From assembly GCF_003065405.1 (NCBI RefSeq), contig NZ_CP026947.1:868001-932000 (forward strand): a stretch of DNA of 64,000 bases, in the 5' to 3' direction. This document shows, piece after piece, positions 8,851-34,303 of the stretch; the stretch's first letter is position 1; the number at the start of each line of letters is the position of its first letter. The translations under genes were made by a program, and so were the position numbers. The notes beneath the pieces were generated by a model that did no database searches, was not told where the DNA came from, and saw nothing but the letters and a program-made list of their open reading frames with translations. This DNA comes from Corynebacterium yudongzhengii. GTDB lineage: Bacteria; Actinomycetota; Actinomycetes; Mycobacteriales; Mycobacteriaceae.

Positions 8851-10218
8851 CTACTTTCCTACGAGGTTTTGGCCACAGACGCGGATCGTCTGTCCTTGCA
8901 CCGCGCCGGAGGCTGGCTGGCAGAGGTAAGCGATGGTTTCGGCGACATCCACGGGACGGCCACCTTGGGAGAGCGAGTTGACGCGGCGGGCGATCTCGCG
9001 GCGCAGGTACGGAATCTCGGCGGTCATGTCCGTTTCGATGAAGCCTGGGGCCACCGCGTTGGCGGTGATCCCGCTGTCGGCAAGTTCACGCGAGAGCGAA
9101 TCCGTGTATCCGATCACCCCGGCCTTGCTAGCCGCGTAGTTGGACTGGCCCTTGTTGCCGGCGATGCCGCTGGTAGAGGCGATGCCGACGATGCGCGCCT
9201 CGTCGCCGAAACCACCCGGCCCGCGTTCGGCGAGCAGGTCGGCGTTGATGGCCATCTCGGCTTTCAGGTTGATGTCGATGACCTGGCGCCACTTCTTCGC
9301 ATCCAGATTCACGATGGACTTATCCCGCGTAATCCCCGCGTTGTGCACGATCGCCCACAGTCGCGCATCGGCGCCGTGGGTGCGGGTGATGTGATCGGTG
9401 ATGCGGTGGGCGGCGTCGTCGTCAGTGATGTCGAGGGGGAGCGCGGAGCCGCCGATTTCGGAGATGAGTTCGCTGAGCTCACCGCCGGCGGCCGGCAGGT
9501 CGATGCCGACGACGGTGGCGCCCTGCTCGGCGAACACGCGGGCGATCGCGGAGCCGATGCCGCGGGCCGCGCCGGTGACAGCCACGATGCGTCCGGCATA
9601 AGGCCGCTTATCGACGCCGTGATCTCCCGCCCCCGTCTTAACCTCCCAGGTCTGTCCGCTCACGAAGGCAGAGCGGCCCTCGATAAGGAACGACAGGGTA
9701 GAGGCGAGATCACCCGCCTGGGTATCCGGGCAGACGCGCACGAGGTTGGCGGTGGAGCCACCGCGCAGCTCCTTGCCGACAGTACGCATGATCCCGTCGA
9801 GCGCCTCCGCCGCCGCACGCGCCTCATGGTTATCTGCTGCGGCGTCCTCCGGGCGGGGTCCGAGGATGATGATGCGCCCGGATTTCTCGAGCCCGCGCAC
9901 CGCCGGTCGCAGCACCTGGCGCAGAAGCTCCAGATCGTCGAGGAGTGCGAGGTCGGTGGCGTCGATGATGAGCGCGCCGGGTTTGTCGTCGTAGGCGGGG
10001 GTGTGGTCGTGGTGGTCGTCGATAAGCGGGGCGCCCGGTGCGATGCCGAGTAACCCTAAGGTGTCGACGGCGAGCGTGGATCGCCCGGTCGCGTAGGCGA
10101 GGATGTCGCCGGCCGGGAGGGTGTCCTCGCGGCGTAGGGTCGGCGGTTCTTTGAGCCCGAGCTGTTTGGTGAGCAGCCGGCCGGGGCCCGAGGTTGCAAG
10201 CGTTTCGAGGATGTTCAT
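8851..10218 (-). CDS. fabG4: High-molecular-weight 3-oxoacyl reductase, FabG4-like SDR
   Basis: NAD(P)H-dependent reductase acting on 3-oxoacyl thioesters. The 455-residue length, about 200 longer than ordinary FabG, is characteristic of FabG4/HMwFabG (Rv0242c), which carries a flavodoxin-like N-terminal domain (about 1-200). The C-terminal short-chain dehydrogenase domain shows TGAARGIG (215-222), an NAG motif near 293-295, a serine near 348 and YAASK (Tyr361, Lys365). It is separated from the htdX-like gene by 10 nt and from fadA2 by 2 nt, so the three are probably one operon. FabG4 is described as NADH-dependent in mycobacteria; cofactor use here is inferred. Confidence 0.9.
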   Translation of the reverse strand: MNILETLATSGPGRLLTKQLGLKEPPTLRREDTLPAGDILAYATGRSTLAVDTLGLLGIAPGAPLIDDHHDHTPAYDDKPGALIIDATDLALLDDLELLRQVLRPAVRGLEKSGRIIILGPRPEDAAADNHEARAAAEALDGIMRTVGKELRGGSTANLVRVCPDTQAGDLASTLSFLIEGRSAFVSGQTWEVKTGAGDHGVDKRPYAGRIVAVTGAARGIGSAIARVFAEQGATVVGIDLPAAGGELSELISEIGGSALPLDITDDDAAHRITDHITRTHGADARLWAIVHNAGITRDKSIVNLDAKKWRQVIDINLKAEMAINADLLAERGPGGFGDEARIVGIASTSGIAGNKGQSNYAASKAGVIGYTDSLSRELADSGITANAVAPGFIETDMTAEIPYLRREIARRVNSLSQGGRPVDVAETIAYLCQPASGAVQGQTIRVCGQNLVGK

Positions 10219-14134: not shown

Positions 14135-14344
14135 GGTTTGGGGGTGCTGGTTGGTGCGCACTCTGACCGGCGAGGCTCCGTTTCTGGGAGGGTGAACTCA
14201 TCCAGCGGTAGCGCAACACGGGCGCCCGGCCGGAGATGCGAGGGTGGCGGCCTGACGCTTGGCCGCGCCAGGCTCATCCGCCCCACCAGCGTCTCTGGCA
14301 AGCTCGCGCGGTCTGCTGGCGCCTTCCTGGCTATAACGCGATAG

Positions 14345-22908: not shown

Positions 22909-24369
22909 ATGGATCAAACTCTGCTCTGGATAATTATTGCCGCCGCCGTGGTCGTGCTGATCATCATCGGCATCATCGTCGTCGGCGGCAAGCGTAAGAA
23001 GGACAAGGCGGTCAGCTTCGCAAAGCAGGAGGAACCGCGCGAGCTGACCCAGCAGGAAAAGTCCGGAAACTACCAGGCCGCCGGGGGATTCAACTTCGCC
23101 TCCGCCATCAAGAGTGAGGCCGACGAGCGGCGCCAGCCCCAGCCGGCACAGCGCGACGAGCCGGCGGCGACGAGTGAGGAGCCGGTCGTCGAGAAGCACA
23201 TCGCCGAAGGCCCCGTCAGCGAGGGCTCCGAGCTGACCACCGAGCACGCTGAGGCGGAGCCCGAGCCTGAGGCGGAGGTGGAACCGGAACCGGAGGTGAA
23301 GCCGGAGGCGGAGGTGGATCGCGCCGAGGCCGAGGAGGCCGCGACCGCCGCGCAGGCCACCGCCGAGGGGGTCGACGAGGCCGTCGAGCAGACCCCCGTG
23401 CCGGAAGGCGAGCCTGCTCCGCCGCCCGAGCCGCTCGACGACATCGCCCCGGCCACCGGCCGCATCGGGCGTTTGCGTGGGCAGCTGTCGCGTTCGCAGA
23501 ACGCGATCGGCCAGGGGCTGCTCGGCATCCTTACCGCTGGTGACCTCGACGAAGACGCCTGGGAGGAGATCGAGGACACCCTCATCATGGCTGATCTCGG
23601 CGCAGAGCTGACCGCCAAGGTCACCGAGAATCTGCGCACGAAGATCGCCGAGCGCGGCGTCAGCTCCGAAAAGGAAGCCCGCGAGATGCTGCGCGAAACC
23701 CTCATCGAGGCCGGCCGGCCGGAGCTCGACCGCTCGGTCAAGGCGATGCCGGTCGACGGGAAGCCGGCCGTCGTGCTCGTCGTCGGCGTTAACGGCACGG
23801 GCAAGACCACGACGACGGGCAAGCTCGCCCGCGTGCTCGTCGCGATGGGGCACAAGGTGCTGCTCGGCGCCGCCGATACCTTCCGCGCCGCGGCCGCCGA
23901 CCAGCTGGAGACCTGGGGTCGCCGCGTCGGGGCGACCACCATCCGCGGCGCCGAGGGCGCCGATCCCGCGTCGGTCGCCTACGACGCCGTCGCCCGCGGT
24001 GTGGAGGAGCAGGCCGAAGTGGTGCTCATCGACACCGCCGGCCGCCTGCACACCTCTCACGGGCTTATGGATCAGCTGGGCAAGGTGAAGCGCGTCGTCG
24101 AGAAGAAATCGCATGTCGACGAGGTGCTCCTCGTCATCGACGCCACCGTCGGGCAAAACGGCCTGATGCAGGCGCGGGTGTTCTCTGAGGTCGTCGACAT
24201 CACCGGCGTGGTGTTGACCAAGCTGGATGGCACCGCCAAGGGCGGCATCGTCTTCAAGGTCCAGGAGGAGCTCGGCGTTCCGGTCAAGCTCGTCGGCCTT
24301 GGTGAGGGTGCCGATCACCTCGCGCCATTCGAGGTGGAAGGATTCGTCGACGCGCTGCTGGGGAACTAA
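22909..24369 (+). CDS. ftsY: Signal recognition particle receptor FtsY
   Basis: GTPase that docks SRP-ribosome complexes at the membrane. The 486-residue protein starts with a single membrane span (about 5-28, LLWIIIAAAVVVLIIIG), then a basic stop, an acidic Glu/Pro/Ala-rich linker (about 60-175), and the conserved NG domain. The GTP-binding loops include VGVNGTGKTTTTGKLA (G1), DTFRAAAADQLETW, DTAGRLHT (G3) and TKLDGTAKGG (G4). The N-terminal anchor is typical of actinobacterial FtsY. A GGAGGTGA site ends about 13 nt before the ATG. A short dyad follows at 24371-24391. Confidence 0.97.
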   Translation: MDQTLLWIIIAAAVVVLIIIGIIVVGGKRKKDKAVSFAKQEEPRELTQQEKSGNYQAAGGFNFASAIKSEADERRQPQPAQRDEPAATSEEPVVEKHIAEGPVSEGSELTTEHAEAEPEPEAEVEPEPEVKPEAEVDRAEAEEAATAAQATAEGVDEAVEQTPVPEGEPAPPPEPLDDIAPATGRIGRLRGQLSRSQNAIGQGLLGILTAGDLDEDAWEEIEDTLIMADLGAELTAKVTENLRTKIAERGVSSEKEAREMLRETLIEAGRPELDRSVKAMPVDGKPAVVLVVGVNGTGKTTTTGKLARVLVAMGHKVLLGAADTFRAAAADQLETWGRRVGATTIRGAEGADPASVAYDAVARGVEEQAEVVLIDTAGRLHTSHGLMDQLGKVKRVVEKKSHVDEVLLVIDATVGQNGLMQARVFSEVVDITGVVLTKLDGTAKGGIVFKVQEELGVPVKLVGLGEGADHLAPFEVEGFVDALLGN

Positions 24370-26168: not shown

Positions 26169-29168
26169 ATGCTAGCCCTGATAGTGGCGATCCTCGCCCT
26201 CACAGTGGCCGCGGCGCCCCTGCTGGATCGACTATTGGGACGAAACGCTGGATGGGTGCTCGCCATTCCGCTGATCGTCAGCGCCGTGATCGCGGCGCGT
26301 ACCTATCAGTCGACCACCGGGGGAAGCGGACCGTACACAGAGACCCACCAGTGGATGCCCACCCTCGGGGTGGACTTGGCGTTCCGCTTCGACGGTCTGT
26401 CCTTGGTCTTCCTCATGCTGGTGCTCATCATTGGCGCTGGTGTGGTAATGTATTCGACTCGGTACCTTTCGCCGGGTCACAACGTGGGTTTCTGGTTCTT
26501 CATCACCGGCTTCGCCGCCGCGATGACGCTTCTGGTACTGACAGATGACCTCATCGTTTTCTATGTCGCCTGGGAACTGACCACCCTGTGCTCGTTCTTC
26601 CTCATCGCCATGACCGGCGGCTTCGGCGGACGTGCCCCAGCGGTGCGCACCCTTTTGGTCACCGTGTTCGGTGGCTTGCTGCTGCTCACCGCCACGGTCA
26701 TCATGATCGTGACCACCGGCACCACTCGGCTCTCCGAGGTGCTGACCTCTGAGTCGTGGGACGAGCAGCCCGCCATGCTGGTAACCGTGGCGATCCTCGT
26801 GGCCATCGCCGCGTTCACGAAGTCCGCGCAGTTCCCCTTCCAGGCCTGGCTGCCGGACTCCATGGCGGCGATCTCGCCGGTGTCTGCCTATCTGCATGCC
26901 GCCGCCATGGTTAAGGCCGGCATCTACCTGATGCTGCGCTACTCGCCGCTGTTCAGCGATCTGTTCTGGTGGCAGATTCTGCTCATTGTCTCCGGTGCGG
27001 TCACGGCCGTGTTCGGCGCCATGACCGCGGTCAAGCGCGACGACCTCAAGGAGGTCCTCGCGTACTCGACCATGAGCCAGCTCGGCCTTCTCACATTCAC
27101 CATCGGCCTGGCTTTCGAAGGCGCACTGACCGCAGCGATCGTCCACACCATCGCGCACGCCACCTTCAAGGCGGCTCTGTTTATGTTGATCGGCATCGTC
27201 GACCACGAGGCCGGTACGAGGCGCTTCAGCAAGCTGCGGCAGATGCGCATGAAACTGCCGGTCACCAAAACACTCACCGTCATCACGGCGGCGTCCATGG
27301 CCGGTATCCCACCCTTGGCTGGTTTCGTGTCCAAGGAGAAGCTCATCGAGGCCACCCTCGATCTGCCGGTCCCGGACGCCGACTACACCGTTATTTTCGC
27401 CGGCGTGGTCGTCATCACCTCGATCATGACCTTCGTCTACTCCGCCCGCATCATCATGGGTGTGTTCGGCATGCGTCGGAAAGAGATCGACGCGGCCAGC
27501 ACCGAACCGAAGGAGGTCCACGAGGGCCCCTTCCTGTTCTGGATGGTTCCGTTGCTGCTGGCGGGCGTCACCATTGTGGTGGGCCTGGTGCCGCAGATTC
27601 TCGAGCACCCGGTGGCCGACGCCGTGCTCGCCGCCAACGGCGCGGAATACGAGCCGGGACTCGCCCTGTGGCACGGTTTCAACCTGGCGCTCGGCTTGTC
27701 GGCGCTCATCATCGTCGTTGGCGCCCTGTTTGTCCGCCGCCTCGACATCGTCCGCGGTCTGCTGTCGCGCTCGATGTCGCCGATCTCCGGCTTGGGCGCG
27801 GTGGAGAGCATCCGCGCCGGCATTATCGAAGCCGGCGGCTACATCACCCGCCTGTCGGGTACCACCTCGATGCGCCGCCACCTCGCGGCCCCGATGGTGC
27901 TGCTCGTCCTCATCGCTTTCGTCGGCATGCTCATGATCACCGACCTGCCGGAGATCGTCGGCGACCCCTCGCGTACCTCCGACTGGGTGATGACCGGCCT
28001 GATCGCCGTCGGCGTCGCCGCCGCCATCCGCGCGAACTCGCGGTTGACGGTCATCATCGTCGTCTCGATCGTGGGCTTCTCGATGACCCTGTGGTTCTAC
28101 GCCCTCGGCGCCGCCGACGTAGCGACCACCCAGCTGACCGTTGAGGTGCTCACCGTCGTCGTGATGGTGCTCGTGCTGCATCGCCTGCCCTCGGCGTTCA
28201 AGTCCGAGGGGCGTTCCAACGAGTCGCTGTCCATGGCGCTCGCCGCCGGCATGGCGCTGGCGACCTTCATCGCCATCGTCGCCCTGACCGGCCGCCGCGA
28301 GAAGTCGGACGCCGCCGAGTACTACCTGCGCAGCGCGGAGAACGAGACCGGTGGCTCCAACATCGTCAACACCATCCTGGTGGACTTCCGTGCACTCGAT
28401 ACCTTCGGCGAGCTGACCGTGCTCGGGGTGGCGGGGCTTGTGATTGCGGTGCTCGTCGCCTCGCGCCCGCTCTCGCGCCCGCACGACGCCGATTTGGACA
28501 TCGAATCCCCGATCGCCCCGCCGCGCGAGAACGCGGTCTTCCTCAAGACCTCGCTGTATCTCATCGGCCCGATCATCGTCGGTATGTCGGCGCTGCTGTT
28601 CCTCCGCGGCCACTACGAGACCGGCGGTGGCTTCGTCGCCGCCCTGGTTGCCGGCGCGGGGTTGATGCTCATGTACCTCGCGGCGCCGTCTGACGACGAG
28701 GGCCGCCTCGGCGTCTCCTACAGTGCGCTGATCTGCGCCGCCGTGACCGTCGGTGCGGTCACGGGCATGTTCGGCTTCTTAGAAGGCTCCTTCCTGGCGC
28801 CTTTCGATATCAACTTGGGCGTCACCGAGATCACCTCCACGCTGATCTTCGACCTGGGCGTCTACCTCGGCGTCATCGGCCTGGTCGTGGCCTCGGTCAA
28901 CCTGCTCGGCACAGCCGACTCGCGCGGCTTCAGCCCGGATAGCCACCTTGGCCACCCGCACCGCCCGACGCTCGGTAAGACGCGCGAGCACCTGCACCGT
29001 TCGCGTCGTCGCCAACGGGAAAACTTCGACGGCGACGCCGGCGCCGACACCGGCGAGGCGGGCCCGGTGCTCGACGAGGACGGCGACTACGTCTTCGACA
29101 CCGTGCCGGAAGACCCCGAGGAGTCCTCCGATGCCACCGAAGCCACCGATACGGCAGAAAGGAACTGA
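26169..29168 (+). CDS. mrpA: Na+/H+ antiporter Mrp subunit A fused to subunit B
   Basis: Largest subunit of the multi-subunit Mrp cation/proton antiporter in the membrane. Residues about 1-780 are a NuoL-like antiporter with KSAQFPFQAWLPDSMAAISPVSAYLHAAAM and the lysine-bearing HIAHATFKAALFML-type helices. From about residue 835 the protein becomes a recognisable MrpB domain (SLYLIGPIIVGMSALLFLRG, ETGGGFVAALVAGAG), and it ends in a charged cytoplasmic tail. At 999 residues it is an A-B fusion, which explains why no separate mrpB lies in the operon. CCAGGAGAG precedes the ATG by about 10 nt. The set serves Na+ or alkali resistance and pH homeostasis. Confidence 0.95.
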   Translation: MLALIVAILALTVAAAPLLDRLLGRNAGWVLAIPLIVSAVIAARTYQSTTGGSGPYTETHQWMPTLGVDLAFRFDGLSLVFLMLVLIIGAGVVMYSTRYLSPGHNVGFWFFITGFAAAMTLLVLTDDLIVFYVAWELTTLCSFFLIAMTGGFGGRAPAVRTLLVTVFGGLLLLTATVIMIVTTGTTRLSEVLTSESWDEQPAMLVTVAILVAIAAFTKSAQFPFQAWLPDSMAAISPVSAYLHAAAMVKAGIYLMLRYSPLFSDLFWWQILLIVSGAVTAVFGAMTAVKRDDLKEVLAYSTMSQLGLLTFTIGLAFEGALTAAIVHTIAHATFKAALFMLIGIVDHEAGTRRFSKLRQMRMKLPVTKTLTVITAASMAGIPPLAGFVSKEKLIEATLDLPVPDADYTVIFAGVVVITSIMTFVYSARIIMGVFGMRRKEIDAASTEPKEVHEGPFLFWMVPLLLAGVTIVVGLVPQILEHPVADAVLAANGAEYEPGLALWHGFNLALGLSALIIVVGALFVRRLDIVRGLLSRSMSPISGLGAVESIRAGIIEAGGYITRLSGTTSMRRHLAAPMVLLVLIAFVGMLMITDLPEIVGDPSRTSDWVMTGLIAVGVAAAIRANSRLTVIIVVSIVGFSMTLWFYALGAADVATTQLTVEVLTVVVMVLVLHRLPSAFKSEGRSNESLSMALAAGMALATFIAIVALTGRREKSDAAEYYLRSAENETGGSNIVNTILVDFRALDTFGELTVLGVAGLVIAVLVASRPLSRPHDADLDIESPIAPPRENAVFLKTSLYLIGPIIVGMSALLFLRGHYETGGGFVAALVAGAGLMLMYLAAPSDDEGRLGVSYSALICAAVTVGAVTGMFGFLEGSFLAPFDINLGVTEITSTLIFDLGVYLGVIGLVVASVNLLGTADSRGFSPDSHLGHPHRPTLGKTREHLHRSRRRQRENFDGDAGADTGEAGPVLDEDGDYVFDTVPEDPEESSDATEATDTAERN

Positions 29169-29171
29169 CCT

Positions 29172-29531
29172 ATGACTCTCGCTCTGTCTGCCGCTCTGCT
29201 GATGTTCGGCGGCGTGTACCTGATGATGCGCCGCGAGATGTTGCGCATCGTCTTAGGATTCATGCTGCTCAGCCACGCGGCCAACCTCGTGCTCATGGCC
29301 GCCGGTGGCACGGCCTGGAGGGATGAGCCCTTCGGCACCCACCAGGTCACCGACACCGCCGCGGACCCGTTGCCGCAGGCGTTCGTACTCACCGCGATCG
29401 TGATTTCCTTCTCGATCTCCGTGGTCATGCTGGTCACGGCGGTCGTCGGCAAGTCCGATGACCGCACCCGCACCGCGGATTCCGAGAAGCCTGCCGACGA
29501 TAAGGCCGACCGAAAAGAGGTGAACAGCTGA
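29172..29531 (+). CDS. mrpC: Na+/H+ antiporter subunit C
   Basis: A 119-residue NuoK-like membrane subunit with three spans (about 5-22, 28-48, 70-95), including LMMRREMLRIVLGFMLLSHAANLVLMAAG and LPQAFVLTAIVISFSISVVML. A charged tail follows. It starts 3 nt after mrpA and ends sharing a base with the mrpD start (TGATG), so the subunits are translationally coupled. Homologues match MnhC/MrpC in length and segment order. Confidence 0.93.
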   Translation: MTLALSAALLMFGGVYLMMRREMLRIVLGFMLLSHAANLVLMAAGGTAWRDEPFGTHQVTDTAADPLPQAFVLTAIVISFSISVVMLVTAVVGKSDDRTRTADSEKPADDKADRKEVNS

Positions 29532-31162
29532 TGCTCAGCTACGACACTCTGAGCGCCCTGCTGCCTGTCCTCGCGGGCGGCCCACTGTTGATGGCCGGCG
29601 TGATGATCCTGCTGGGGCGCACCTACGTGCTCCAGACGGCGCTGATGTTCGTATCGCTTCTGGCGATGCTCGGTTTCTCCATCGGGCTGATCTTCCGCGT
29701 CGACGATGGCGAGGTGATCGCCCACGGCACCGCCAACTGGCCGATGGGCATCGCGATCCCGTTCGTCCTCGACATGTTCTCCGCTTTAATGCTGTTAACC
29801 ACCACGATCCTGGCGCTGACCTGCGCCTGGTTCGCGGTGGCCTCCGGCCTGCACCGGGAGCGTTTCTTCGCCCCGCTCGTCATGATCCTCATGACCGGTG
29901 TCTACGGCGCGATCCTCACGGCGGATATCTTCAACTTCTTCGTCTTCATCGAGGTCATGCTCCTGCCGTCCTACGGGCTCTACGCCCTGACGATGGCTCG
30001 GCGCGCCCCGGACAAGCGTGTCGACGGCCTGCGCCTCTACATCTCCGCCAACCTGCTGGCCTCCACGGTGCTGTTGATCGGCGTGGGCTTCGTCTACGGC
30101 ACCGCCGGCACGGTCAACCTCGCCGAGCTCGCTGGCGTCGCGGCGGAAGACGATACCGTCGCCATCGCCATGGCCGTGGTCATGCTGGCCATGCTCACCA
30201 AGGCCTCGGTCGTGCCGATCCACACCTGGCTGACCCGGACCTACAACTACACCTCGCCGGCGATCACGGCGCTGTTCTCCGGCCTGCACACCAAGGTCGG
30301 CGTCTACATCACTTACCGCCTTTATGCCGTGGTCTTCGGCGGCGACGACCGCTTCCTCTGGGTCTTCGTCGCCCTGTTCACCGCCACGATGTTCTTCGGC
30401 GTCATGGGGGCGGTCGGCGAGTTCCACTCGCGGTCCATCCTGGTGTTCCACATGGTCAGCCAGCTCGGCTACATCCTCATGGGTGTGGCCCTGTTCACCC
30501 AGGTGGGGCTGACCGCCGGCATCTTCTACCTCGTCCACCACATGCTGGTGAAGGCCTCGCTGTTCATGTCCACCGGCGCCGTCGAGGTCCGCTATGGCTC
30601 CGGCCAGATCGGGCGGGTTACTGGCATCGCGAAGCGCGAGCCGATCATCGCCATTGCATTCTTCATCGCCGCGCTCTCGCTGGCCGGCATCCCGCCGTTC
30701 TCGGGCTTCGTGGCTAAGGCGTCGCTGATGATTGCCACGTGGGAGGCCAGCGAGGTGCTCGCGCTGATCACCATGGTGGTGGTCTCGATCATCACTCTGC
30801 TGTCCATGCTCAAGATCTGGGGCGGCATGTTCTGGGGCGACGAGAAGGACGAGGAAAAGCGTGCGCAGGCGCGGGCCCGTCGAGAGGCGCGCGAACGCCG
30901 CGCCCGCAAGGCGGCCGAAGCCGAGACCGGCGCCGCCGCAACCGCCGCAAGCGTGGCCATCGCCGAAAAGACCGACGATGTCGAAAAAGAGGCACCGCAC
31001 GAGCGCCGCATCGGCTTCTTTTTGGCTGCCCCGTCGGTCATCCTGGCGGGCATGACCATTGCCATCGGCCTGGGGGCCGAGGTGCTCCTCGGCTGGTCCG
31101 AGACCGCCGCTGAAGGACTCATGGATACCTCCACCTACGTCGAGGCGGTGCAGAACTCATGA
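29531..31162 (+). CDS. mrpD: Na+/H+ antiporter subunit D
   Basis: A 543-residue NuoM/NuoN-like proton-translocating subunit with about 14 membrane spans. Conserved elements include FNFFVFIEVMLLPSYGLYAL with the membrane glutamate, MLTKASVVPIHTWLTRTY and the HHMLVKASLFM helix with its lysine. Near residues 435-475 it carries a charged insertion very rich in Arg, Ala and Glu (DEKDEEKRAQARARREARER) before the last span, probably a cytoplasmic loop and unusual compared with shorter Mrp D proteins of about 500 residues. It overlaps mrpE by 4 nt (ATGA). Confidence 0.94.
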   Translation: MLSYDTLSALLPVLAGGPLLMAGVMILLGRTYVLQTALMFVSLLAMLGFSIGLIFRVDDGEVIAHGTANWPMGIAIPFVLDMFSALMLLTTTILALTCAWFAVASGLHRERFFAPLVMILMTGVYGAILTADIFNFFVFIEVMLLPSYGLYALTMARRAPDKRVDGLRLYISANLLASTVLLIGVGFVYGTAGTVNLAELAGVAAEDDTVAIAMAVVMLAMLTKASVVPIHTWLTRTYNYTSPAITALFSGLHTKVGVYITYRLYAVVFGGDDRFLWVFVALFTATMFFGVMGAVGEFHSRSILVFHMVSQLGYILMGVALFTQVGLTAGIFYLVHHMLVKASLFMSTGAVEVRYGSGQIGRVTGIAKREPIIAIAFFIAALSLAGIPPFSGFVAKASLMIATWEASEVLALITMVVVSIITLLSMLKIWGGMFWGDEKDEEKRAQARARREARERRARKAAEAETGAAATAASVAIAEKTDDVEKEAPHERRIGFFLAAPSVILAGMTIAIGLGAEVLLGWSETAAEGLMDTSTYVEAVQNS

Positions 31163-31536
31163 AAAACATCCTGACCTATCCTTTCCGCTTCATCGCCTTC
31201 TGGCTGTGGTACTTCAAGGAATTCTGGGTATCGAACTTCGACATCGTGCGCGACGTGGTCACCCCCGGTAACGACGCGCACCCCGGTATCGGGCGCTACG
31301 AGTGCCACAGCCTCTCCGACTGGGAATACGTGCTGCTGGCCTCGCTGATCACCATCACGCCGGGTACCTTGGTCGTCGGCGCTGGCCGCGACACCGACTC
31401 CGGGGTGCGGGTGCTCTACGTCCACGGCCTGTACGCACAGACGGAGCCCGAACTGCTCGACGAGATCCGGGATATGGAAGACCGCATGATCAACGGCGTC
31501 TCCCTCTTCCCGCGGTACAACGAAGGAGCCCGCTGA
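31159..31536 (+). CDS. mrpE: Na+/H+ antiporter subunit E
   Basis: A 125-residue subunit with the family sequence PFRFIAFWLWYFKEFWVSN and then GIGRYECHSLSDWEYVLLASLITITPGTL, followed by a soluble C-terminal domain with LYVHGLYAQ. It overlaps mrpD by 4 nt and is followed 1 nt later by mrpF. It has one or two spans at the N-terminus and is required for a full Mrp complex in the systems studied. Confidence 0.93.
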   Translation: MKNILTYPFRFIAFWLWYFKEFWVSNFDIVRDVVTPGNDAHPGIGRYECHSLSDWEYVLLASLITITPGTLVVGAGRDTDSGVRVLYVHGLYAQTEPELLDEIRDMEDRMINGVSLFPRYNEGAR

Positions 31537-31537
31537 C

Positions 31538-31792
31538 ATGGCCATCATCGTAGGAATGATCATCCTGGGAATCACGTGTATCCCGGCCGCCTACCGCATG
31601 CTCATCGGCCCGACGGCCGCCGACCGCGCGGCCGCCGCCGACCTGTTGCTGGTCGCGGTGGTGGGGCTGCTCGCGCTGCTGGGATTCCAAAATGGCTCGA
31701 ACTATATCTTTGACATCGTGCTCGTCGCCGCGCTCGTCGGATTCATCTCCGCGATCTCTTTGGCGCGCGCACTGACGGGAGGTATCCGATGA
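31538..31792 (+). CDS. mrpF: Na+/H+ antiporter subunit F
   Basis: An 84-residue protein with three hydrophobic spans, containing CIPAAYRMLIGPTAADRAAAADLL, the signature stretch of MrpF, and a central aspartate within the second membrane region. It overlaps mrpG by 4 nt (ATGA). Length and sequence fit the family well. Confidence 0.93.
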   Translation: MAIIVGMIILGITCIPAAYRMLIGPTAADRAAAADLLLVAVVGLLALLGFQNGSNYIFDIVLVAALVGFISAISLARALTGGIR

Positions 31793-32139
31793 GCTTCTTA
31801 GAAATCGTCGCGTTACTCGGCGACATCCTCATCATCCTCGGCGCCATCATCTTCGGCATCTGTGCCGTCGGTGTGTTGAAGTTCCGCGACGTGTATACCC
31901 GACTGTCCGTAATCGGTACCGCCGGTGGTTCCGGCATCATCCTCGTGATTATCGGGGTCTGGATGCAGGATCCGCAGTGGCTCGACGGGCTCAAGGCCGT
32001 CGGCGCGATCATCCTGCTTCTAGGTACCTCGGCGCTCGGCTCCATCCTCATCGCCCGGGCGGCGCTGTTGCGGCGGACCCCGATGATCGAGCCGATTTTC
32101 GACGACACCAAGCTGCTTTCCGAAGAATGCGTCGACTAA
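31789..32139 (+). CDS. mrpG: Na+/H+ antiporter subunit G
   Basis: A 116-residue, three-span subunit with GDILIILGAIIFGICAVGVL followed by KFRDVYTRLSVIGTAGGSG, the typical MrpG region. It is the last gene of the mrp operon; no clear terminator follows before the GlxR-like site at 32178. The operon lacks any separate B subunit because B is fused to A. Confidence 0.93.
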   Translation: MSFLEIVALLGDILIILGAIIFGICAVGVLKFRDVYTRLSVIGTAGGSGIILVIIGVWMQDPQWLDGLKAVGAIILLLGTSALGSILIARAALLRRTPMIEPIFDDTKLLSEECVD

Positions 32140-32177
32140 AACCGCTACCGGCGCCCGTGGGCACGCACTAGACTAAT

Positions 32178-32193
32178 GGTGACGTAGATCACC
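32178..32193. promoter_or_regulatory. Candidate GlxR (CRP-family) binding site
   Basis: GGTGACGTAGATCACC matches the corynebacterial GlxR consensus TGTGANNTANNTCACA except for the two outer bases, including the central TA. It is centred about 36 bp upstream of the PII-like start codon. It may regulate that gene with cAMP. This is a sequence-only call. Confidence 0.55.
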
Positions 32194-32221
32194 TAATAGT
32201 TGAGCAAAGTGAGTGTCTACC

Positions 32222-32584
32222 ATGAAGCTGATCACCGCAGTAATCAAGCCGGAAATCTTGACCAAGGTGCGCGACGAGCTCACCCAGCTCGGCGTGCACG
32301 GCATGACCGCCAGCGAGGTACAGGGCTATGGCTCGCTGCACGCCGCCGGATTCCAGCCCAAGGTCCGAATTGAGATCGTCGTGCCCGCCGACCAAGTCGA
32401 CGACGTCGTCGACGCTGTGTGCCGTGGGGCTTTTACCGGCAAGGCCGGCGACGGAAAGATCTGGATCACGCCCGTCGACCACGTCGTGCGCGTGCGTACC
32501 GGCGAGGCTGACCACGACGCCCTCTGGCCCGCGCGCGTGCGCCGGTGGGAAGGGGATGTGACCAGCGCAGCGGGTTCACGCTAG
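32222..32584 (+). CDS. PII-family signalling protein with shortened T-loop
   Basis: A 120-residue PII protein (ATG at 32222; a GTG 9 nt upstream is an alternative). It keeps the start MKLITAVIKPEILTKVRDEL, the B-loop TGKAGDGKIWI and the C-loop VRVRTGE that bind ATP/ADP in PII trimers. The T-loop is cut down: between GYG and PKVRIEIVV there are 8 residues (SLHAAGFQ) instead of about 19. The tyrosine normally modified by GlnD and the usual contacts to AmtB, GlnD and PII targets are therefore gone. A short basic/acidic tail follows the C-loop. It occupies the ftsY-ffh interval where amtB-glnK-glnD stands in relatives, with both partners absent. Confidence 0.88.
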   Translation: MKLITAVIKPEILTKVRDELTQLGVHGMTASEVQGYGSLHAAGFQPKVRIEIVVPADQVDDVVDAVCRGAFTGKAGDGKIWITPVDHVVRVRTGEADHDALWPARVRRWEGDVTSAAGSR

Positions 32585-32638
32585 GGTAGGAGAGATACTT
32601 TTTCCTTTTAACCCCGACCACGCGAGGAAGATACGAGA

Positions 32639-34303
32639 GTGTTTGAGTCACTGTCCGATCGCCTAACGAACGCCCTCACCGGGCTCCGCGGCAAGGGCAA
32701 GCTCACCGAGGCGGATATCGACGCCACCGCCCGTGAGATCCGCCTGGCACTGCTCGAGGCCGACGTCTCGCTACCGGTCGTGCGTGCCTTCATCAAGCGC
32801 ATCAAGGAGCGCGCGCGGGGCGCCGAGGTCTCCGCCGCGCTGAACCCGGCCCAGCAGGTAGTCAAGATCGTCAACGAGGAGCTCATCAGCATCCTCGGCG
32901 GGGAGACCCGGCGGCTGCAGCTGGCGAAGAACCCGCCGACCGTGATCATGCTCGCCGGCCTGCAGGGCGCCGGTAAGACGACGCTGGCCGGCAAGCTGGC
33001 GAAGCACCTGGCCAAGCAGGGCCATACCCCGATGCTCGTCGCCTGTGACCTGCAGCGCCCGGGAGCGGTCCAGCAGCTGCAGATCGTCGGCGAGCGTGCC
33101 GAGGTGCCCACCTTCGCCCCGGATCCCGGCACGACCCTCGATGACTCCGGCCACGAGCTGGGAACCTCCCACGGGGATCCGGTGCAGGTCGCGCAGCGCG
33201 GCATCAACGAGGCGCGGCGCACCCAGCACGACGTGGTCATCATCGATACCGCCGGCCGCCTGGGCATCGACGAAACCCTCATGACCCAGGCCCGCAACAT
33301 CCGCGACGCCGTCGACCCGGACGAGGTCCTCTTCGTCATCGATGCCATGATCGGCCAGGATGCCGTGACCACCGCCCAGGCCTTCGCCGAGGGCGTGGAC
33401 TTTACCGGCGTGGTGCTCACGAAGCTCGACGGCGACGCCCGCGGTGGTGCCGCACTGTCGATCCGTGAGGTCACCGGCAAGCCGATCCTGTACGCCTCCA
33501 CGGGTGAGAAGCTCGACGCCTTCGACGTCTTCCACCCCGAGCGCATGGCCAGCCGTATCCTCGGCATGGGTGACGTGCTCAGCCTCATCGAGCAGGCCGA
33601 GTCGGTCATGGACCAGCAGAAAGCCGAGAAGGCGGCGGCGAAGCTCGGCAGCGGCGAGCTGACCCTGACCGACTTCCTGGATCAGCTCATGATGATCCGG
33701 CGGATGGGCCCGCTGGGCAACCTCCTGAAGATGCTGCCCGGCGGCAAGCAGATGAACCAGATGGCCGACATGGTCGACGAGAAGCAGCTCGACCGCATCC
33801 AGGCCATCATCCGCGGCATGACGCCCGAGGAACGCGACAACCCGAAGATCCTCAACGCCTCGCGCCGCAAGCGCATCGCCAACGGTTCGGGCGTGCAGGT
33901 CTCGGACGTCAACCAGCTGGTGGAACGCTTCTTCGACGCGAAGAAGATGATGTCCAAGATGGCCGGCCAGATGGGCATGGGCGGTTCCAAGCGTTCGGCG
34001 ACGAAGAAGAAGCCCAAGGGGCGCAAGAACAAGAAGGGCAAGCGCAAGGCGCCGAAGAACCGGCAGAGGCAGCAGATGCCGCAGATGCCCGGTATGCCCG
34101 GCATGGATATGAATCAGCTGAAGAAGATGGCCGAGCAGATGGATGGCGGGCAGATGCCCGGCATGCCTGGTATGCCCGGTATGCCGGGCCAGGCTGGGCA
34201 GGCCGGCAACAAGCAGCCTAAGAAGCCGGAGGGTGCGGAGGACATCGACTTCGACAACCTCGACTTCAACGCCGCCATGGAGAGGTTGCGCGGCAAGAAG
34301 TAA
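32639..34303 (+). CDS. ffh: Signal recognition particle protein Ffh
   Basis: SRP54 homologue that binds signal peptides and 4.5S RNA. The GTG at 32639 has GAGGAAG 9 nt upstream. The 554 residues comprise the N domain (1-90), the GTPase G domain with GLQGAGKTTLAGKLAKH (G1), DTAGRLGIDE (G3) and TKLDGDARGG (G4), and the methionine-rich M domain (about 300-435) containing MGPLGNLLKMLPGGKQMNQ. The C-terminal tail is basic, then low in complexity, with repeated MPGMPGM units (about 480-515), as often seen in actinobacterial Ffh. Confidence 0.97.
   Translation: MFESLSDRLTNALTGLRGKGKLTEADIDATAREIRLALLEADVSLPVVRAFIKRIKERARGAEVSAALNPAQQVVKIVNEELISILGGETRRLQLAKNPPTVIMLAGLQGAGKTTLAGKLAKHLAKQGHTPMLVACDLQRPGAVQQLQIVGERAEVPTFAPDPGTTLDDSGHELGTSHGDPVQVAQRGINEARRTQHDVVIIDTAGRLGIDETLMTQARNIRDAVDPDEVLFVIDAMIGQDAVTTAQAFAEGVDFTGVVLTKLDGDARGGAALSIREVTGKPILYASTGEKLDAFDVFHPERMASRILGMGDVLSLIEQAESVMDQQKAEKAAAKLGSGELTLTDFLDQLMMIRRMGPLGNLLKMLPGGKQMNQMADMVDEKQLDRIQAIIRGMTPEERDNPKILNASRRKRIANGSGVQVSDVNQLVERFFDAKKMMSKMAGQMGMGGSKRSATKKKPKGRKNKKGKRKAPKNRQRQQMPQMPGMPGMDMNQLKKMAEQMDGGQMPGMPGMPGMPGQAGQAGNKQPKKPEGAEDIDFDNLDFNAAMERLRGKK

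Follow-up and report, generated by a model that had tools for sequence, protein, structure and literature searches.

A GlnK-type PII protein with a shortened T-loop at the ftsY-ffh locus of Corynebacterium yudongzhengii

The working part of a PII protein is considered to be its T-loop, and the adenylyltransferase GlnD acts on Tyr51. The closest described systems are summarized here from excerpts of the cited papers. Most of the known PII-target interactions take place via the T-loop (PMC7196632). Arg47 blocks the AmtB pore, and an R47A variant nevertheless binds AmtB (PMC4274968). The 2-oxoglutarate (2-OG) site consists of Gln39 (through its backbone, and through its side chain via Mg), Gly41 and Lys58 (PMC8395244). 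In C. glutamicum, AmtR has been proposed to be induced by Tyr51-adenylylated GlnK; according to the same excerpt, an in vitro reconstitution of the adGlnK-AmtR complex is still lacking (PMC7919409). A. brasilense GlnZ-delta42-54 binds NadE2 and relieves NAD+ inhibition regardless of 2-OG (PMC7196632). It also binds UmpH without 2-OG control, apparently via the lateral face (PMC11617674).

The PII gene and its shortened T-loop

The window, meaning the whole 64-kb stretch of DNA analyzed here, carries one PII gene (Table 1). Its 120-aa product matched the PF00543 (P-II) profile with 94.5 bits (E 9.6e-27, cut-off 25), and no second match was found by this profile in the genome (one contig of 2,511,302 bases, 100%-complete). 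The protein is predicted to have the PII fold, and the ORF is a genuine GlnK-type PII. An in-frame GTG lies upstream of it, at 32213.

Table 1 Features of the PII locus in the window, and the lone PII gene used for comparison.
Feature	Position	Strand	Basis and remarks
ftsY, bordering the ancestral amtB-glnK-glnD interval on the left	22909..24369	+	Pfam SRP54 + SRP54_N; synteny
ORF between ftsY and mrpA, 220 aa	24502-25164	+	no Pfam match
Mrp antiporter cluster, labelled mrpA(B)CDEFG	26169..32139	+	Pfam for A, D, E, G subunits; C and F named by gene order
Possible -10 element TAGACT, directly 5' of the palindrome	32169..32174	+	by eye
Palindrome GGTGACGTAGATCACC, CRP/GlxR-like	32178..32193	.	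between mrpG and the PII gene (82-base gap), which has no AmtR box
GlnK-type PII gene, shortened T-loop, 120 aa	32222..32584	+	ORF; sole PF00543 match in genome
Residual T-loop SLHAAGFQ, 8 residues (normally 19)	32333..32356	+	sequence, alignment; pLDDT < 50 at residues 39-41 (AlphaFold)
B-loop TGKAGDGK, nucleotide phosphate binding	32435..32458	+	sequence
C-loop VRVRTGE, R101 and R103 (E. coli numbering)	32486..32506	+	sequence
C-terminal extension WPARVRRWEGDVTSAAGSR, 19 residues	32525..32581	+	sequence; missing from the other 169 corynebacterial GlnK
ffh, bordering the interval on the right	32639..34303	+	synteny
Lone PII of G142, flanked by ftsY and ffh; genome lacks Amt and GlnD	L203 (G142) 9822-10157		

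The normal exposed T-loop of about 19 residues is lacking. Between GYG and PKV there are eight residues, none of them a Tyr, compared with 19 in M. tuberculosis PII. HMMER alignment of the two proteins placed a single 11-residue gap at the T-loop and otherwise paired residues 1-101. The loss amounts to 33 bases, is in frame and is accompanied by altered flanking codons, and therefore does not have the signature of a base-calling error. Standard loop length was found in 169 of the 170 intact corynebacterial GlnK (168 genomes), C. yudongzhengii being the exception, so that the short loop is not an ordinary variant.

The nucleotide-binding loops were unchanged. G87, D88 and K90 in the B-loop and R101 and R103 in the C-loop (E. 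coli numbering) were identical in all 170 GlnK, including that of C. yudongzhengii. Two claims of the preliminary description were thus borne out, namely intact B- and C-loops (TGKAGDGK, RVRTGE) and a T-loop of 8 instead of about 19 residues without a Tyr. At the 2-OG site, Lys58 is kept and the Gln39-Gly41 segment is deleted or replaced; with this segment lost, 2-OG sensing should be gone. The surviving core probably binds ATP/ADP with no response to 2-OG, like engineered GlnZ-delta42-54.

A C-terminal tail of 19 residues had been overlooked before. Despite the deletion, the protein has 120 aa, compared with 112-114 aa in 169 of the 170 GlnK. AlphaFold modelled the tail at low confidence (pLDDT < 50, residues 108-120). 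A source for it was sought in the former glnD or intergenic stretch, and no convincing match was found.

The short-loop PII is real, and it is rare among the sequences examined. Among the matches listed for 242 Corynebacterium genomes (171 of them matched; about 160 rows), there was no other short-loop GlnK, and a closer look at 33 genomes with low-scoring PII gave fragments only. A protein database search returned 7,884 hits from 8,000 scored candidates, and a search with a loop-trimmed PII profile 7,999 hits from 8,000 scored; the best 120 of each were examined. A 19-residue loop was read in 226 of the 239 PII sequences retrieved as the best rows of both searches. Eight of the 239 parsed uncleanly (five read 32, one read 25 and two gave no match, the last two showing a normal loop by eye). 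Shorter loops were read in P0141 (10 residues), P0139 (15 residues), and P0129 and P0093 (16 residues), all of them single-contig records. P0141, an E. coli-like PII with the T-loop GFG-RGAEYMVDFL-PKV on a 2.3 kb single contig (source ENA), is the only other very short loop among the matches listed, and may be an artefact. In a scan of named genomes, 78 of the 80 loci kept out of 429 confirmed read as 19-residue loops; the other two were misread and looked normal by eye. Hence the search for other 8-residue T-loops, suggested with the preliminary description, gave none among the matches listed for the genus, the protein database and the named genomes. In the open-licence literature on PII, the phrase "T-loop deletion" was not found, and "shorter", "lacking/lacks" or "truncated" T-loop phrases were absent among the matches listed.

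The ftsY-ffh locus and the partner genes

The gene stands at the GlnK locus between ftsY and ffh, and has neither a linked amtB nor a GlnD to act on a Tyr51. No profile match to Amt was found in the complete genome. Nor was a GlnD match as strong as those of the GlnD+ genomes found in it, the best one having an E of 2.6e-7. GlnD+ was defined as E < 1e-25 to TIGR01693, a model whose curated cut-off was reached by 0 of the 242 genomes; the 127 GlnD+ genomes had E no higher than 1.3e-28, the match that followed them being at 7e-16. Within the window, no trace of amtB or glnD was detectable, while the controls PII and ffh were recovered, so the PII gene has outlived both. The earlier report that the two genes are gone from the ftsY-ffh interval can be extended: they were not found elsewhere in the genome.

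The same report had held that Mrp genes stand in their place, and this did not survive a gene-order comparison of 18 contexts. Mrp lies beside amtB-glnK-glnD in G069 (ftsY-mrpACDEFG-amtB-glnK-glnD-ffh) and on the other side of glnK in G105 (ftsY-amtB-glnK-mrp-ffh). Mrp has thus long had a place between ftsY and ffh, and what happened to amtB and glnD was loss from a cluster of this kind, not replacement.

AmtR, whose presence had also been overlooked, is encoded in the genome (E 8.3e-83 to PDB 5dy1, with 5mqq and 6gy3, both named AmtR, close behind), and shares 69% identity with the G216 protein. It is the one known corynebacterial GlnK partner found still encoded. AmtR may no longer listen to the short-loop PII, because derepression in C. 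glutamicum needs adenylylated Tyr51. By a strict pattern, there was no AmtR box in the 320 bases upstream of the PII gene; the same pattern found one before amtB in G069, G216 and G099, and none in G040 and G105. The box CTATN6ATAG occurred four times in the C. yudongzhengii genome (G000) vs six times for a reversed control pattern, which is no enrichment. Two of these four AmtR-box-like sites, at window 14331-14344 and G000:C1:2406475-2406488, have the common flank CGCTGG(A/T)CGAAAGGAG, perhaps as copies of a single repeated element.

The palindrome in the upstream gap resembles what we take to be the CRP/GlxR motif. A tight pattern of this motif gave four strand-matches at two places in 64 kb (0.33 expected), the second place being inside a coding frame. 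A looser pattern was not enriched (10 found vs 14.8 expected). Since the loose pattern was unenriched and the other tight match is intragenic, the palindrome is only suggestive of a CRP/GlxR site. No promoter was found by a sigma-70 scan of 31800-32800.

T-loop residues and partners across the genus

The 242 genomes were divided into 87 with PII, GlnD and Amt, 39 with PII and GlnD, 45 with PII and Amt, two with PII and neither partner, and 69 without PII. Here, Amt+ means any Amt match and takes in partial, probably broken genes (e.g. G149, G230, G158). Of the 69 PII-less genomes, 40 had neither Amt nor GlnD, 28 had Amt, and one had GlnD at a contig edge. AmtR was kept in 15 of those 40 vs none of the 28, where AmtR+ excludes G066, G209 and G234 (E 1e-32 to 1e-36). 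GlnD at the GlnD+ level was missing from 115 of the 242 genomes; an excerpt of a 2015 review calls glnD ubiquitous in actinobacteria (PMC4285133).

Residue counts were based on 170 GlnK from 168 of the 173 PII+ genomes. Five genomes were dropped: G199 (contig end), G045, G067 and G175 (relics), and G121. The PII match of G121 (L213, near 5676) is a different, NifI-like PII by eye, and ftsY, ffh, amtB, glnD and GlnK queries had no match in its 12 kb context. The relics are decaying amtB-glnK loci, at L210 (G045), L211 (G175) and L212 (G067); in G045, a piece of amtB is in frame with the 3' part of glnK, from GAEFAADF. Second PII copies of G001, G102, G144, G145, G152, G176 and G190, with full-length spans of 318 bases, stood outside the set.

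Tyr51 was present in all 127 proteins from genomes with GlnD (87/87 with Amt, 40/40 without), and in 32 of 41 with Amt only. Arg47 was present in all 128 with Amt (87/87 and 41/41) and in 37 of 40 with GlnD only, and was altered in both partnerless proteins. Tyr46 was kept in 87/87 and 41/41 with Amt, and in 39 of 40 with GlnD only. His42 and Glu50 varied only in proteins from genomes without GlnD. By Fisher tests, which ignore relatedness, changes of R47 (5/42 vs 0/128) had a value of 8e-4 and changes of Y51 (10/43 vs 0/127, C. yudongzhengii counted) of 5e-7. On a PII-core tree of 87 columns, R47 needs four changes and Y51 six, of which well-supported branches force one and two. Judged from these patterns, the T-loop appears to follow its partners across Corynebacterium. 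This co-variation over 242 genomes supports the earlier proposal that loss of modifier and transporter went together with loss of the loop.

Two of the 173 PII+ genomes were partnerless: C. yudongzhengii, with the loop deleted, and G142, with the loop tip mutated. The G142 PII has a full-length T-loop and Tyr51, and carries E44G, V45P, Y46S and R47T (E. coli numbering) at the tip. Both genomes keep AmtR. In the Ffh tree (62 genomes), C. yudongzhengii grouped with G040, G233 and G216 (support 84-91), and G142 belonged to a separate well-supported group. Of these kin, G216 has amtB, glnK and glnD, G233 is without Amt, and G040 (ftsY-amtB-glnK-ffh) is without GlnD. Because the kin keep one or both partners, these were lost repeatedly, and both of them in C. 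yudongzhengii. Contrary to the Ffh tree, the PII-core tree joined C. yudongzhengii and G142 (SH-aLRT 89), both on long branches. Long-branch attraction is the likely cause, and a shared origin of the two proteins may be another.

Competing explanations and known systems

We see an even chance that the short-loop PII is the GlnK orthologue at the ancestral ftsY-ffh locus, where both partners were lost, the loop was then deleted, and a constrained body remains. The main rival is a relic under relaxed selection: glnK, jobless without GlnD and AmtB, would be drifting to loss, with the deletion and the read-through-like tail as early damage. The 69 PII-less genomes fit such a course, as do the three genomes with fragments or frameshifts, although true decay in the latter (G045, G175, G067) looks unlike the C. 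yudongzhengii gene. There, the ORF is fully open, the B- and C-loop residues are intact, and amtB and glnD have gone without a detectable trace in the window while the PII gene stays. The rate of core evolution bears on both explanations. On the fixed Ffh topology (58 genomes), the PII-core end branch was 2.2x the Ffh expectation in C. yudongzhengii and 1.9x in G142. The Amt-keeping G044 and G219 also reached 2.2x and 1.9x, so that faster evolution is not confined to the two partnerless genomes. When mean distances to the remaining 57 genomes were compared, the PII/Ffh ratio of C. yudongzhengii ranked only 13th of 58. PII pN/pS to four other genomes was 0.38-0.50, well below 1, and to three kin 0.41-0.50, vs 0.20-0.33 among those kin. 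Differences from G216 by codon position were 0.22/0.22/0.50, keeping the position-3 bias. Five of the 34 columns conserved at >=90% were changed (F11E, T12I, V30A, K60R, D67A; tied rank 2 of 170), and two of 28 at 95% conservation. The core is thus faster-evolving but still constrained. Relaxed selection fits the long end branch and the changed conserved columns as well, and we rate decay as a serious possibility that falls somewhat short of even. The earlier suggestion of a new partner or a free-standing regulator therefore has to be weighed against a relic, the end branch being about twice as long as Ffh would predict.

Two other explanations carry far less weight. The evidence comes from one assembly of one strain, and an artefact of assembly or sequencing might have taken away part of the loop. 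This is most improbable given the one-contig genome, the in-frame loss with changed flanking codons, the unrelated tail, and a database cluster of the short-loop protein with two members on two contigs; the genome-wide absence of Amt and GlnD also matches the loop loss. Re-purposing of the PII for the adjacent Mrp antiporter is very unlikely. The gene lies 82 bases behind mrpG on the same strand, and many PII proteins regulate transporters; however, the orders in G069 and G105 make this adjacency most simply a by-product of amtB loss. In addition, the 19 kb context of G142's lone PII gave no Mrp match, and the GlnK-AmtB contact is almost wholly made by the T-loop, as an excerpt of PMC4274968 describes it.

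Returning to the orthologue that kept a constrained body, the mechanism could be as follows. GlnD, acting on Tyr51, and AmtB, plugged by Arg47, would hold the T-loop under selection; once both were lost in the lineage, the loop would have had no purpose and been removed by the in-frame deletion. The remaining trimer would bind ATP/ADP in its lateral clefts, could not be modified, and could not read 2-OG, the Gln39 segment of the site being gone. Its lateral face would make contact with partners whatever the nitrogen status, as in GlnZ-delta42-54 with NadE2 and UmpH. We infer the nucleotide binding, the blindness to 2-OG, any partner and any activity of this protein. Whether it still signals is a more tentative matter: a natural T-loop-free PII, acting with its body only as a modification-free, 2-OG-blind ATP/ADP sensor through the lateral face, perhaps the tail, and possibly on AmtR, is conceivable, and we would sooner doubt it than expect it. 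NadE was set aside as a partner, as the NAD synthetase of C. yudongzhengii is encoded in a frame of 328 aa, too short for the glutamine-dependent type controlled by GlnZ.

If such a T-loop-free sensor exists, the C. yudongzhengii PII would stand at the end of a series running through the genus, with each T-loop residue retained only while its reading partner lasts. A natural loop-less PII in a genome without GlnD and Amt would separate the jobs of a textbook sensor. Combined with the survey of 242 genomes, such a protein would make testable both the assignment of residues to partners and a T-loop-independent job of the core that is worth keeping. GlnZ-delta42-54 gives a concrete prediction, namely binding without 2-OG control.

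Compared with C. glutamicum GlnK (PDB 6yc6, 6yc7), the C. yudongzhengii PII is without the 19-residue T-loop, Tyr51, Arg47 and the Gln39 segment, and has an extra C-terminal tail; GlnD and Amt were not found. The G142 PII is like it in having no GlnD or Amt, in the presence of AmtR, in the ftsY-ffh locus and in a fast-evolving core, and unlike it in the full-length T-loop with Tyr51 and a mutated tip. A. brasilense GlnZ-delta42-54 (PDB 5ovo, with DraG) is engineered and keeps Gln39, whereas the C. yudongzhengii PII is natural and without Gln39.
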